35,301 nucleotides of DNA, taken from positions 1 to 35,301 of the IMG/VR virus record IMGVR_UViG_3300022591_000033; one strand, written 5' to 3'. Origin of the DNA: a virus. The position numbers and the translations under genes are program-made. The notes under the pieces are model-generated. The model was not told the origin of the DNA. It saw only the letters and a program-made list of their open reading frames with translations, and did not search any database. This document shows positions 3,748-32,444 of the stretch, one piece after another (the first letter of the stretch is position 1; each line of letters starts with the position of its first letter).

Positions 3748-3940
3748 CAGCGCGCCCTCCTTTCTCTCGCACCGGATACTTCGCCATCAACACCGTGAGC
3801 GCCGGCTTCACAATCTCGAAATTCTGCATGTCGGCGCACTGGCAGCAGGCAAGAAACGACCGGAGAAATGAGCCGGGGTTCTCGGCCAGCTTCTCGACGA
3901 CGTAATAGTGCATCTGCGGATACTGTTGTAGGTTTGCCAT
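3725..3940 (-). CDS. Small helical phage protein of unknown function
   Basis: This 71-residue protein is not recognised. It contains FLACCQCADM around residue 30, a CCxC cluster that could bind a metal, in an otherwise helical, mildly basic sequence. GAGGAG stands about 8 bases before ATG 3940. Its end overlaps the next gene by 23 bp. Confidence 0.65.
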   Translation of the reverse strand: MANLQQYPQMHYYVVEKLAENPGSFLRSFLACCQCADMQNFEIVKPALTVLMAKYPVREKGGRADESLPGG

Positions 3941-3941
3941 T

Positions 3942-4220
3942 TCAGAGCTCCTCTCTCAGCATCATGATCACTTTCGCCAGGAACTTCCCGTAGGCGGCCC
4001 CGAATTCGTCCGACAACCCAGCTTCCACGGGGAACTCCGCAGGGAAGGCATAGAAGGTTCTGCCCGTCCCTGTCACCGCGGCGCGCCAGTCGCTCTTGAC
4101 GCCGGCGACGCTCTTCTGAATCTTCCCGCACAGGAGGCAGGTCATCACCTCTCCCATGAACGCAAATGTTCCGCTGAGCTTACGCAGGTTGCCGTTGCCG
4201 CCCATCATCTCCCCCTTCAT
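3942..4220 (-). CDS. Phage protein of unknown function with one CxxC motif
   Basis: This protein of up to 92 residues has no recognised family. A single CLLCGK motif near residue 28 could be half of a zinc site or a redox pair. The ATG at 4220 gives an ATGA overlap with the upstream gene but has only a touching GAGG. In-frame ATGs at 4208 and 4205 follow AAGGGGGAG, the phage's usual binding site, so 4205 may be the true start (87 residues). Confidence 0.6.
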   Translation of the reverse strand: MKGEMMGGNGNLRKLSGTFAFMGEVMTCLLCGKIQKSVAGVKSDWRAAVTGTGRTFYAFPAEFPVEAGLSDEFGAAYGKFLAKVIMMLREEL

Positions 4221-10057: not shown

Positions 10058-10089
10058 TCCCGCCAGTCCGTTATATTGGACTGGCGGGA
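10058..10089 (-). promoter_or_regulatory. Perfect 12-bp hairpin in the spacer before the Ycf35-like gene
   Basis: TCCCGCCAGTCC (10058-10069) and GGACTGGCGGGA (10078-10089) pair perfectly around an 8-base loop. No U-tract follows on the minus strand. An eight-codon reading frame (GTG 10097 to TAA 10071, preceded by GAAAGGGGGCAAC) runs through the first arm and stops in the loop, which would suit a leader-peptide switch. That reading is speculative. Confidence 0.5.
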
Positions 10090-10110: not shown

Positions 10111-10701
10111 CTAAAAATCCGGCTCGATCGGTTCATCCACTTTCCTCATAAGCTCCCGCGCGACTTCCGGTGCGGGCGTGCGCTTGCCCAACTGCCAGAG
10201 ATATATCCAAATCCTATAATATAGCGATGAGCTGTCGAGTTGCGCCCGATAGACATCCTCAAGCGCCGAGTGGTTCGCCTGCTCCCGGAGGCTGTTGTAT
10301 TCCTCACAGCCGAAGAAAGCGCATCCGAATGGGGCCACTGGATGAATCGAGCACTGCCGCTCCCCCGTGAAGTGAATGCAGGCGCCGCTCTCCTGCCGAG
10401 CAGGAACCAGCGTGTGAATCCGGAAAGGTTTCCCGCCCTGCAATACCAGCGCGCCCGGCGAAGCCAGGAGGTTTGACTCCGCCCAGGTGCGCGGATCGCA
10501 AACGTGGATGAGCCCGCCACACTCACACGCGCCGTCACATGCCGTCGTTCCCCGCATCACACGATGGCAACGATTGCATTCGAGCGGAATCATCCGGCCC
10601 AGGTCTGCCGGGACCAGATACCCCGGCATGAACTCACAGAAACGCGCGCAGGACGGACACGCGCAAGACGTCCGAGCAACCCCGTACTCTGTTCGGTTCA
10701 T
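10111..10701 (-). CDS. Cys-rich metal-binding protein, YkgJ-like
   Basis: This 196-residue protein has 14 Cys in three groups: CACPSCARFC (13-22), CNRC with CDGACEC (42-61) plus Cys68, and a C-terminal set GACIHF, QCSIHPVAPFGCAFFGC (107-132). The last set matches the YkgJ family (putative zinc- or iron-chelating; 'C.f......C.iy..RP..Cr.f.C'). The earlier groups look like extra zinc ribbons. Role unknown; YkgJ proteins are thought to bind an Fe-S cluster or zinc. It overlaps the AAA+ ATPase gene by ATGA and starts at ATG 10701 after AAAGGGGGGAAAGC, so it is surely co-translated with that ATPase. Confidence 0.75.
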   Translation of the reverse strand: MNRTEYGVARTSCACPSCARFCEFMPGYLVPADLGRMIPLECNRCHRVMRGTTACDGACECGGLIHVCDPRTWAESNLLASPGALVLQGGKPFRIHTLVPARQESGACIHFTGERQCSIHPVAPFGCAFFGCEEYNSLREQANHSALEDVYRAQLDSSSLYYRIWIYLWQLGKRTPAPEVARELMRKVDEPIEPDF

Positions 10702-12233
10702 GCTTTCCCCCCTTTCTTCTGGAAGGTAATTGGGCCTTCGTCAACCTGTAGGCGGCGTTTTCCGCCCCCACTTGATTCAGCCTGCTCTTCCCAGCGATAG
10801 ACTCCCGGCTGCGAGGCCGAGACGTATTTTCCCGTCGCGAGCTGCCGGAGTGAACGAACCTTGTCTGCCGCCGCTCGGCAGACCGGCACGATGAACTTCG
10901 CTGCTTCCCGCAACGGTACTTGGAGCTGGTCGGCGAGCTTCGAGCACTCCTTGATTTCCCGGCCCGTCCAACCGTCATCGGCTGGAATCGGATCGTCTGT
11001 CGAGAGCGAATACTTCTTGCCGTAGAATTTCCAGCAGGCTTCCCGCTCATCCGCTCCCATCAGGTCAAAGAAGAACGTCCCGAGCGTGAACCGGCTCAGG
11101 ATTTCAGGAGGCATCTGCCCGATGGCGTTGCAGGTGCCGATGACCAGCGTGTTTCCCTGGGAGATGGCATCAACGGTTTTCAGCGCGGTGCGAAGCCGCT
11201 CTTCCGTCGAGCCGATGATACCGGACTGCATCCCGGCCAGGTCGAACATGATGGTGGGGATTCCCGCCACGCTGCCGGCCCACTTGGCGAGCAGCGTCTT
11301 TCCCCCTCCCGGAACGCCGATGCAGAGGATGCCGTCCGACTCCCGCTCCGTCGTCCAACTCAGCCACGTTCCGGTCATTCCCGTCTTCACGCCGGAGAGG
11401 TCTGTCCCGGTCCCGGCGAACGCCTTCTCGATCTCATCGATGAAGAGGATGCAGCGGTACTTTTTCCGTCCCGCCAGCACCTGCTTGAGAAAGGCGCGAA
11501 CGTTCTCCAAGCCGACCGGCTCAGGAGTCGAGCCCCGTGAAACCGTCATCCCGGCCTGCTGCTCGATCTGCTGGCGCTTGCGTTCCCACAAGCCCTCCAC
11601 GTCGATGCCGCGCTTCGAGGCGGACATGGCCATCGCCTGCTCTGCCGGAAAAGCAGCCAAGCCCGCAACCGCGTCGATCGCGGCCGCTTCTTGCTCCACT
11701 GTCAAGGTCTCGCAGCCCGCCGCCTGCACGATGTTCCGCAGAATGACGAGCAGCTCTTCCGAAGTCGGCAACGGCTCATCAATGACCAGCACATCCTCGG
11801 ACAGCTCCGGCGGAAGAACCGCCCCCGCCGTCGTCGTCATGACCAGCATCTGTCCGTTAACCTTGAACGGCTCGCGCAGGTTCCAGATGCCTTGCCTCAC
11901 CCCTTCGTTCGACCAGAACAGATGTGCGTTCACCATGACGATAATTGCATCCCCCTCGCGAATCTTGGGCAGCAGCATGAGAAAGTCTGTAGGTCGAGTG
12001 GAGACTTCCAGTGGATCTCCCCCGCCCATGATGTTCGCGGCAACCTCGCTTCCCGGCCGCGTCATTCCCTGGAGTCCGCGCATCAAATCCCAAATCAGGA
12101 TAGGCGTTTGATCGGCCTTGCCGTTCAGAGAGTCTTTGATTTCGTTGATGGCCGACCACGGGTCAGCCGTTCGCACCGCGACGAGCGGAGTCGCCGCCTT
12201 GCGAGCCGCCCGGAATTGCTGTTTGAATTCCAT
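10698..12233 (-). CDS. Ycf46-like AAA+ ATPase with permuted Walker motifs
   Basis: This 511-residue ATPase has an N-terminal domain (1-235) that follows the Ycf46 plan: PILIWDLMRGLQGM (44-57), DAIIVMVNAHLF (95-106) and LPPELSEDVLVIDEPLPTSE (140-159). The ATPase domain starts at VGLENVRAFLK (240-250). Next comes the Walker B block CILFIDEIEKAFAG (261-274) with LSWTTER, and only then Walker A GVPGGGKT (306-313). After GSTEERLRTALKTVDA it goes straight to the sensor-1 strand TLVIGTCNA (362-370) and LSRF (379-382). In ordinary AAA+ proteins Walker B lies between Walker A and sensor 1, so the beta3-alpha3 segment appears moved. I checked the order in the DNA (11285-11470): one frame, no stop. Substrate unknown. 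ATG 12233 follows GAGGGGGGAAACTACC. Confidence 0.85.
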   Translation of the reverse strand: MEFKQQFRAARKAATPLVAVRTADPWSAINEIKDSLNGKADQTPILIWDLMRGLQGMTRPGSEVAANIMGGGDPLEVSTRPTDFLMLLPKIREGDAIIVMVNAHLFWSNEGVRQGIWNLREPFKVNGQMLVMTTTAGAVLPPELSEDVLVIDEPLPTSEELLVILRNIVQAAGCETLTVEQEAAAIDAVAGLAAFPAEQAMAMSASKRGIDVEGLWERKRQQIEQQAGMTVSRGSTPEPVGLENVRAFLKQVLAGRKKYRCILFIDEIEKAFAGTGTDLSGVKTGMTGTWLSWTTERESDGILCIGVPGGGKTLLAKWAGSVAGIPTIMFDLAGMQSGIIGSTEERLRTALKTVDAISQGNTLVIGTCNAIGQMPPEILSRFTLGTFFFDLMGADEREACWKFYGKKYSLSTDDPIPADDGWTGREIKECSKLADQLQVPLREAAKFIVPVCRAAADKVRSLRQLATGKYVSASQPGVYRWEEQAESSGGGKRRLQVDEGPITFQKKGGKA

Positions 12234-12262: not shown

Positions 12263-12326
12263 GCGCTCTCGCCAGCCCGTCCGGGCCTGAGCGCCTTTCC
12301 CTGTTTGCCGTGGATTCCGCCACGGC
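12263..12326 (-). promoter_or_regulatory. Two-hairpin element before the AAA+ ATPase gene (copy A)
   Basis: Read on the minus strand, hairpin 1 is GCCGTGG/CCACGGC (12326-12307, 6-base loop), then the linker AAACAGGGAAAG, then hairpin 2 with an outer GCGCTC/GAGCGC stem (12294-12263) and an inner GCCCG/CGGGC stem. The layout and linker match the element at 13021-13082. It fills the spacer between the small membrane protein gene and the ATPase start. Confidence 0.6.
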
Positions 12327-12334
12327 GCGGCATG

Positions 12335-12550
12335 CTAGTATTGCTTGCCCATCGGATAGCCACATACGACGCAGAATCGCGCGCCTGTGCAGCGATGCAC
12401 GAAAGGCACCGGAGGCCGGGCGGCCTTCGCTGCCTGCTCGCGGTTCACGGTGCGTGAAGCCATCTTGACGACGCGCACCATAAAGAAGATTGCGAGCACC
12501 ACACACAAAAAGAAGATGGTCCCGCTTGCCAAGAAGTTAATCACGTCCAT
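12335..12550 (-). CDS. Small single-span membrane protein with a Cys motif
   Basis: This 71-residue protein has one hydrophobic segment at about residues 5-26 (FLASGTIFFLCVVLAIFFMV), then a basic region (RVVKMASRTVNREQAAKAAR) that should stay in the cytoplasm, and a C-terminal CTGARFCVVCGYPMG that looks like half of a zinc ribbon. GGAGG lies 8 bases before ATG 12550. It could anchor or sense something at the membrane; no function is assigned. It sits between two hairpin-containing spacers just upstream of the AAA+ gene. Confidence 0.65.
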   Translation of the reverse strand: MDVINFLASGTIFFLCVVLAIFFMVRVVKMASRTVNREQAAKAARPPVPFVHRCTGARFCVVCGYPMGKQY

Positions 12551-12570
12551 TTGAGTTTCCTCCCTTTCTG

Positions 12571-12595
12571 CCCGCCTCGGTCCTGCCGAGGCGGG
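12571..12595 (-). promoter_or_regulatory. Perfect 10-bp hairpin before the small membrane protein gene
   Basis: CCCGCCTCGG (12571-12580) and CCGAGGCGGG (12586-12595) form a 10-bp stem with a 5-base loop. On the minus strand it is followed by CAGAAAGGGAGG, the ribosome binding site of the gene starting at 12550. No U-tract. Confidence 0.55.
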
Positions 12596-12608
12596 CGGCA
12601 GCCGCTGA

Positions 12609-12995
12609 TTACTTTCTGTGAACTATAATTTGATTACCGTTTGCATTAATGGCTCTTTCGAGCAGAACGAAGAATTGGTTGGTGCTTGCTCTTTTCATTA
12701 GTGGCGCTAGGTAGAGATCCCGTTTGCCACCAGTGACTTTCACGGTTACTCTGCTGCCGGTTCCTTCCGGCATGATGATGGTTTCAAGGCTGATTCCATT
12801 TCCGTGGAATTTTGCAGTCATGTGTTGTTCATCCAGTAAGTCAACAGCGTAGTTGATTTGTACAAGTGTTTTTTCTGCTTTCCACGTTTCAGAAGGAGTT
12901 GCGTTTATCGGTCTAGTGGAATCCTTTCCGAATGCCACTGTGGCAAAACCGAGCGACATCAAAAGCAGAACCATAATCGAAATAAATATTTTCAT
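12609..12995 (-). CDS. Exported phage protein of unknown function, AT-richer than its neighbours
   Basis: This 128-residue protein starts with a classic signal peptide: MK, a hydrophobic core IFISIMVLLLMSLGFATVAF and a likely cleavage near FG-K (about residue 23). The mature part is probably a small alpha/beta domain with strands around VTVKVTG and NQIIVHRK. No Cys remain after cleavage. ATG 12995 has AAGGAGG 8 bases upstream. The gene is visibly poorer in G and C than the genes around it and is flanked by hairpins on both sides, which suggests a recently acquired 'moron' acting at the host envelope. That role is inferred. Confidence 0.7.
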   Translation of the reverse strand: MKIFISIMVLLLMSLGFATVAFGKDSTRPINATPSETWKAEKTLVQINYAVDLLDEQHMTAKFHGNGISLETIIMPEGTGSRVTVKVTGGKRDLYLAPLMKRASTNQFFVLLERAINANGNQIIVHRK

Positions 12996-13020
12996 ATTGG
13001 ATTCCTCCTTATTTGATTCC

Positions 13021-13082
13021 CTGCCCTTGCCAGCGCCGAGCGCCTGGGCAGATTTCCTGTTTGCCGGAGATCGCGCTCCGGC
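13021..13082 (-). promoter_or_regulatory. Two-hairpin element before the exported protein gene (copy B)
   Basis: On the minus strand hairpin 1 is GCCGGAG/CTCCGGC (13082-13063, 6-base loop), then AAACAGGAAATC, then hairpin 2 with outer CTGCCC/GGGCAG and inner GCGC/GCGC stems (13051-13021). Compared with copy A at 12263-12326, stem bases differ but pairing is kept, and the linker is nearly identical. Confidence 0.6.
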
Positions 13083-13088
13083 AGCGGC

Positions 13089-13274
13089 CTACGCGAAGGC
13101 TTGCTTGTTTTCTGCCAGTCGCAACTTCACCATCTCTGCAGACAGCTCATCTTCCTGAACGACGAGCGTGCTTGGATCCGGCCCGATGGCGTTGAACCAA
13201 ACCATGCCTTCCACCGTCCCGAGATACTGTGCGCCAGCCAACACCACTATCCGCTCATGATCCGCATTAAACAT
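13089..13274 (-). CDS. Small phage protein of unknown function
   Basis: This 61-residue acidic protein is not recognised. It contains IVVLAGAQYLGTVEGMVW, probably two or three strands, and then an acidic helix. ATG 13274 follows AAAGGGGGAGGGGACC and overlaps the previous gene by 8 bp. Confidence 0.6.
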   Translation of the reverse strand: MFNADHERIVVLAGAQYLGTVEGMVWFNAIGPDPSTLVVQEDELSAEMVKLRLAENKQAFA

Positions 13275-13459: not shown

Positions 13460-13487
13460 CGGCCCAGGACCATCGTGTCCTGGGCCG
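13460..13487 (-). promoter_or_regulatory. Perfect 11-bp hairpin in the spacer after the Lys/Ala-rich gene
   Basis: CGGCCCAGGAC (13460-13470) pairs with GTCCTGGGCCG (13477-13487) around CATCGT. It lies between the stop at 13508 and the start at 13422. No U-tract follows. Confidence 0.55.
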
Positions 13488-32412: not shown

Positions 32413-32444
32413 CGGGCGGCAGGATGTGCACATCCTGCCGCCCG
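32413..32444 (-). promoter_or_regulatory. 32-bp perfect palindrome between major tail and chaperone genes
   Basis: All 32 bases are self-complementary, with centre GGATGTGCACATCC and GC-rich arms. On the minus-strand transcript it forms a very stable hairpin between the major tail gene stop (32470) and the chaperone start (32396). No U-tract follows, so it more likely shields or processes mRNA, or weakens transcription, than ends it. Confidence 0.7.

Follow-up and report, generated by a model that had tools for sequence, protein, structure and literature searches.

A repeated two-hairpin RNA ahead of phage ribosome-binding sites as a candidate class of self-cleaving ribozyme

Introduction

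To our knowledge, only about ten classes of natural small self-cleaving ribozymes have been described. Pseudoknots are present in many small ribozymes. The hatchet and twister-sister classes were discovered by genomic association with hammerhead, twister and certain phage genes, and hatchet is mostly known from metagenomes. In the accounts given in PMC4604425 (citing Weinberg et al. 2015) and PMC6154101, pistol likewise came to light through its association with other ribozymes and phage genes. This ribozyme has three stems and 10 highly conserved nucleotides (PMC4604425). Short repeats just upstream of start codons, at a subset of genes, have been reported as SAS and ESAS in cluster K mycobacteriophages (PMC3203893). 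SAS always has the same 13-bp sequence, GGGATAGGAGCCC, whereas ESAS is a 17-bp inverted repeat; both belong to one phage cluster. Here we describe a repeated RNA element of environmental phages that is comparable with these systems in several respects. Self-cleaving ribozymes in phages are already known; the RNA class itself would be new.

Results and discussion

Two copies of the element in one phage sequence

The window is the whole 35,301-nt stretch that was analysed (IMG/VR record IMGVR_UViG_3300022591_000033). Its initial annotation, made from the sequence alone, described two copies, A and B, of a two-hairpin element with a common order on the minus strand, and both were confirmed where it had placed them. 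The copies belong to a minus-strand gene series that leads from tail genes to replication genes. The features of the region are as follows (R1 and R2 are covariance models).

10698..12233, minus strand: 511-aa AAA ATPase gene (PF00004), downstream of copy A, which ends 29 nt before the ATG
12263..12326, minus strand: copy A, 64 nt, 5′ end at 12326; R1 67.5 bits, R2 71.8 bits
12307..12326, minus strand: stem 1 hairpin of copy A, GCCGTGG-CGGAAT-CCACGGC
12295..12306, minus strand: conserved linker of copy A, AAACAGGGAAAG, 12 nt, including an extra base found in no other copy
12263..12294, minus strand: hairpin 2 of copy A; outer stem GCGCTC/GAGCGC, internal loop A / GGCGA, inner stem GGCCC/GGGCT
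12335..12550, minus strand: 71-aa gene, stop codon 8 nt before copy A
12609..12995, minus strand: 128-aa gene, downstream of copy B, which ends 25 nt before the ATG
13021..13082, minus strand: copy B, 62 nt, 5′ end at 13082; R1 70.2 bits, R2 70.2 bits
13063..13082, minus strand: stem 1 hairpin of copy B, GCCGGAG-CGCGAT-CTCCGGC
13052..13062, minus strand: conserved linker of copy B, AAACAGGAAAT, 11 nt
13021..13051, minus strand: hairpin 2 of copy B; outer stem CTGCCC/GGGCAG, internal loop A / GGCAA, inner stem GGCGC/GCGCT
13089..13274, minus strand: 61-aa gene, stop codon 6 nt before copy B

Paired positions of stem 1 had been said to change together, and two pairs indeed differ on both sides between the copies. 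The same holds for the claim that the inner stems of hairpin 2 differ and still pair, and each copy lies upstream of a ribosome-binding site, as had been noted. The linker, given as 12 bases in both copies, has this length in copy A, but 11 nt in copy B. The additional G of copy A is absent from the other 32 distinct copies of the family, including the same element in the near-identical phage L001. The linker length is otherwise invariant, and copy A may be impaired. The pattern of letters shared by A and B occurs twice in the window, against 0.01 occurrences expected in shuffled sequences. The folding energies of the copies are ordinary for their composition (z about −1), and the case for structure thus rests on comparison, that is, on covariation.

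The 128-aa gene, which sits between copy B and the 71-aa gene, is missing from the relatives L001 and L003, where B directly precedes a 71/72-aa gene. Its product has a signal-peptide-like start and no match in Pfam, PHROGs or PDB. The window also contains perfect GC-rich hairpins of 11–14 bp at 12570–12596, 13460–13487, 32413–32444 and 10058–10089 (all on the minus strand); a ribosome-binding site follows at least the first three, and the hairpins may be further processing or stability elements.

A family with covarying stems and a conserved core

Copies were first sought by pattern scans of viral contigs. A loose first pattern gave mostly chance matches, which disappeared once the stems were required. 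Model R1, built from eleven pattern-found copies, recovered the remaining ones and others on the same contigs that the patterns had missed, bringing L141, L173, L319, L322, L083 and L003 to two or three copies per record. Pattern and covariance-model searches together gave 36 copies in 22 phage records, with up to six in one phage. All counted copies scored at least 34 bits, whereas control DNA (2.4 Mb) reached at most 20.5 bits. The six copies in the record of L315 (G013) include one of 24.6 bits, left uncounted; this remnant (L315 4475–4522, plus strand) retains stem 1 and the linker and lacks hairpin 2. In 386 Acidobacteriota and 388 Pseudomonadota genomes, the patterns matched three times, and the model scored these matches as chance, so that the element was found only in phage records. 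None of the genome-contig pattern matches listed and examined was accepted by the models, and an R2 search of bacterial genomes, in which 150 candidates each were scored, carries little weight. No copy occurs in Tunturiibacter phage Tunturi_3, whose terminase is distantly related to that of G009.

Across the 33 distinct aligned copies, 93% of the stem cells hold standard pairs, and 16 of the 18 pairs show changes on both sides. The covariation score was 0.707, whereas shuffles scored 0.152 and slid pairings no more than 0.112; the alignment was fitted to the model, which somewhat favours the structure, but the contrast is nevertheless large. Covariation is present in all three helices and absent from the slid pairings. 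The initial annotation had proposed selection for RNA structure and looked to further copies and covariation in related phages; the proposal is upheld by this strong covariation and by the copies in 21 other phage records.

The element consists of stem 1 (5–8 bp; P1), the linker AHACAGKAWNG and hairpin 2, in which an internal loop separates the outer stem (P2) from the inner one (P3). The outer stem has about 6 bp and ends in a C-G pair; it is followed by the 1 × 5 internal loop A / GGCRA and a variable inner stem and loop. The pair closing the inner stem is G·U in 31 of the 33 copies and otherwise G-C. In alignment columns, the unpaired A39, A41, G44, A47, A57, G76, G77, C78 and A80 are identical in 33/33 copies, whereas C42 and A43 are identical in 32/33. 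The core therefore comprises about ten unpaired positions in two places, invariant or nearly so, and the stems vary freely. Its conservation is somewhat overstated because the search patterns fixed part of the core letters; the model-found copies, unlike the pattern-found ones, were free to differ there. A pseudoknot was sought in the alignment and no partner was found; complementarity of the P1 loop to the linker, the P3 loop or the 3′ junction was no better than in shuffled sequences. A CsrA site was rejected, as AGU replaces AGG in three copies.

Scans of the element against Rfam (release 15) at permissive thresholds matched no family. Full-text searches of the literature turned up no account of the motif, although it may be listed, undescribed, among published candidate RNAs of phages.

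Genomic slot and carrier phages

The copies are intergenic: a stop codon precedes them, and the ribosome-binding site of the following gene comes after. Of the 36 copies, 34 end ≤ 35 nt (9–32 nt) ahead of a start codon that has a ribosome-binding site. The downstream gene is usually small and of unassigned function, and several adjacent genes within one phage each have their own copy. The carriers include several groups without similar proteins. No protein common to all carriers was found, profile searches included, and no family occurs in more than 5 of 20 carriers, the records being incomplete. The lack of a widely common protein suits an RNA that needs no dedicated phage partner.

Known ribozymes in the same phages

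Several carriers contain twister-P5, twister-P1, hammerhead and HDV-like ribozymes on the same strand and in the same slot as the element, mostly in the same gene cluster. Twister-P5 scored above the Rfam cut-off in G015, G014, G817 and G009, as did hammerhead II and the HDV-like ribozyme in G015. Below the cut-off were twister-P1 in G014, G817 and G006, and hammerheads in G006 and, in other carrier groups, G002, G012 and G013. The hammerhead cores of the latter three are recognisable and changed at U4 or U7, and G007 has a hammerhead-type match with a non-consensus core. Both the known ribozymes and the weaker hammerhead-type matches share the order stop codon, RNA, SD, ATG. G015 carries, in succession within 2.7 kb of one strand, an HDV-like ribozyme, a twister, a hammerhead and two copies of the element.

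At the strict threshold, 136 kb of DNA from other carriers gave no Rfam match, and neither did control viral contigs (144 kb). The strong association is thus confined, at the Rfam cut-off, to one phage group, and the hammerheads found outside it score below that cut-off. A relaxed hammerhead scan of 0.93 Mb of carrier DNA yielded candidates in L003, L315 and L417 (G012 was found separately), compared to one independent match in 1.86 Mb of control viral DNA. The RNA of L003, a close relative of the window phage, is hammerhead III-like (3897–3950, plus strand; 32.4 bits), has C at U4 and directly precedes a ribosome-binding site. That of L315 resembles a permuted type II hammerhead (3787–3850, plus strand; 23.6 bits) with C at U7; it precedes a 135-aa gene and belongs to the gene series that carries the copies of the element. 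Hammerhead-like RNAs also precede start codons in phages without the element (L323 4221, plus strand; L321 3360, minus strand), which suggests that ribozymes may use the slot more widely.

Exchange at the same gene

The RNA upstream of one gene, encoding a 57-aa protein, is twister-P5 (55.3 bits) in L319 and the element in L173 and L141; the 57-aa proteins are 60% identical (E 1e-25). A weaker second exchange concerns a 54–56-aa gene, which is preceded by the element in G015 and by a twister-P1-like RNA (25 bits) in G006. At another gene of that cluster, two phages have twister-P5 and one has twister-P1. We discarded a further candidate exchange, at a gene whose protein begins FELTP, as the proteins are dissimilar beyond the start. 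It is mainly this replacement of ribozyme classes at the same gene, with the element taking part, that leads us to read the element as a ribozyme; the reading draws on a genomic context that the sequence of the window alone could not show. Association and interchange with known ribozymes are a discovery criterion and not a proof.

Comparison with known classes

Like small ribozymes, the element has a compact conserved core held by covarying stems. It resembles pistol in the succession of a P1 hairpin, linker, P2, internal loop and P3, and in its approximately ten highly conserved nucleotides (PMC4604425, PMC6154101). However, pistol needs a pseudoknot between the P1 loop and the P2–P3 junction, with six base pairs in the crystal structures, whereas the corresponding junction of the element has a single nucleotide and the search revealed no pseudoknot; the Rfam pistol model does not match it. 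As in hatchet, conserved nucleotides lie in the segment that joins P1 to P2 and in bulges separating P2 from P3 (PMC6154101), but hatchet has four major stems (P1–P4) and an optional fifth, in contrast to the three in the alignment of the element, and its Rfam model gave no match either.

One HDV-like ribozyme (HDV-F-prausnitzii) occurs in the same gene cluster of G015 as the element. Its P4 and the following joint, CAG-stem-CUGGCUAA, are close to CAG-stem-CUGGCRAG of the element, as judged by eye. Nevertheless, the nested double pseudoknot of this class (P1, P2, P3, P1.1 and P4) is impossible for the simple nested hairpin of the element, whose covarying pairs form only nested hairpins; the P1 loop is ~6 nt, P3 of the HDV-like fold is absent, and the Rfam model did not match. 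Twister and hammerhead ribozymes share with the element the phages, the strand and the slot between stop codon and ribosome-binding site, but differ in sequence and helix order. The hammerhead core CUGANGA ... GAAA around its three-way junction is absent from all copies, which have no Rfam hammerhead match, and the twister models match neighbouring RNAs and none of the tested copies. With SAS/ESAS, the element has in common its position just upstream of start codons at a subset of genes. The stems of the element vary freely, however, and its conserved core is another one; the 13-bp SAS sequence was absent from the examined upstream and downstream flanks of the copies.

Interpretation and rival explanations

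The element thus shows the association by which pistol was discovered and a core of similar size, and lacks the tested features of the known classes. On these grounds, we consider it probable (roughly 0.6) that the element represents a new class of intergenic self-cleaving ribozyme, not contained in Rfam. We also lean, on balance, towards this class being an interchangeable device of unrelated environmental phages, which would cut polycistronic mRNA ahead of ribosome-binding sites. In the proposed mechanism, the element would be transcribed between two phage genes and fold into the P1 hairpin, the conserved linker and the P2/P3 hairpin with its asymmetric internal loop. The linker, together with the internal loop beside the G·U pair, would form a putative active site that cuts the RNA backbone and splits the polycistronic message. 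After the cut, the mRNA of the downstream gene would begin just ahead of its own ribosome-binding site. The conserved sequence and structure, the genomic position and the exchange with known ribozymes at one gene are observations; from them we infer that the RNA is catalytic, where its active site lies and how it affects expression. Several points argue against a ribozyme: no pseudoknot was detected, common as these are in small ribozymes; the strict-threshold association is limited to one phage group; and the conservation of the core is somewhat overstated.

The principal competing explanation is a signal without catalytic activity that serves translation or processing. The element could be a cis-regulatory RNA that tunes translation of the downstream gene when bound by a phage protein or a conserved host factor (the ribosome, a ribosomal protein or another RNA-binding protein). 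The constant placement before start codons, the copies at several adjacent genes of one phage and the invariant unpaired core suit such a signal; however, no protein family is common to all carriers, and neither the exchange with twister nor the co-occurrence with hammerhead and HDV-like ribozymes is predicted by it, so that we regard it as possible, yet doubtful. Alternatively, a host ribonuclease might cut the element as a processing or stability signal, doing what the neighbouring ribozymes do unaided. Such a signal could well occupy the same slots as ribozymes, and plain GC hairpins also precede ribosome-binding sites in the window. We nevertheless find this rather improbable, because stems of about 7 and 6 + 5 bp are short for an RNase III substrate, the linker is unlike the AU-rich type preferred by RNase E, and an invariant two-part core exceeds the usual needs of a nuclease.

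Two hairpins in a phage RNA also recall the put RNA of phage HK022, a processive antitermination site that acts on RNA polymerase without a phage protein. Antitermination is very unlikely here, since a copy precedes each of several consecutive genes, always beside the ribosome-binding site, and an 11-nt linker separates hairpins that are nearly adjacent in put. Chance inverted repeats or a recent functionless duplication would fit the ordinary folding energies, but are refuted by the covariation and the model searches: the copies occur in many phages without close similarity, and the controls stay far below the counted copies, which leaves this explanation practically no weight.

If the ribozyme reading is correct, the element would notably extend the short list of classes and provide a new active site for investigation. 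The context is also relevant to the question of what purpose self-cleaving ribozymes serve in phages. Different classes occupy the same slot, in related phages even at the same gene, which suggests that their job is to separate the messages of neighbouring genes. Both the class and this role can be addressed with short RNAs in vitro.

Two further observations concern the surroundings of these RNAs. In related phages, the element and a twister-P5 are both immediately preceded by a small hairpin, YCCATTATYYGGAC, which is possibly a module shared by the two; it was located in the upstream flanks of the following intervals.

L173 98–159: hairpin YCCATTATYYGGAC in the upstream flank
L322 2336–2402: hairpin YCCATTATYYGGAC in the upstream flank
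L141 867–928: hairpin YCCATTATYYGGAC in the upstream flank
L173 2916–2973: hairpin YCCATTATYYGGAC in the upstream flank

Large tRNA arrays were observed in the ribozyme-rich phages (L416 9085–14743, L385 7909–12493, L383 14936–17217 and L427 342–2520).
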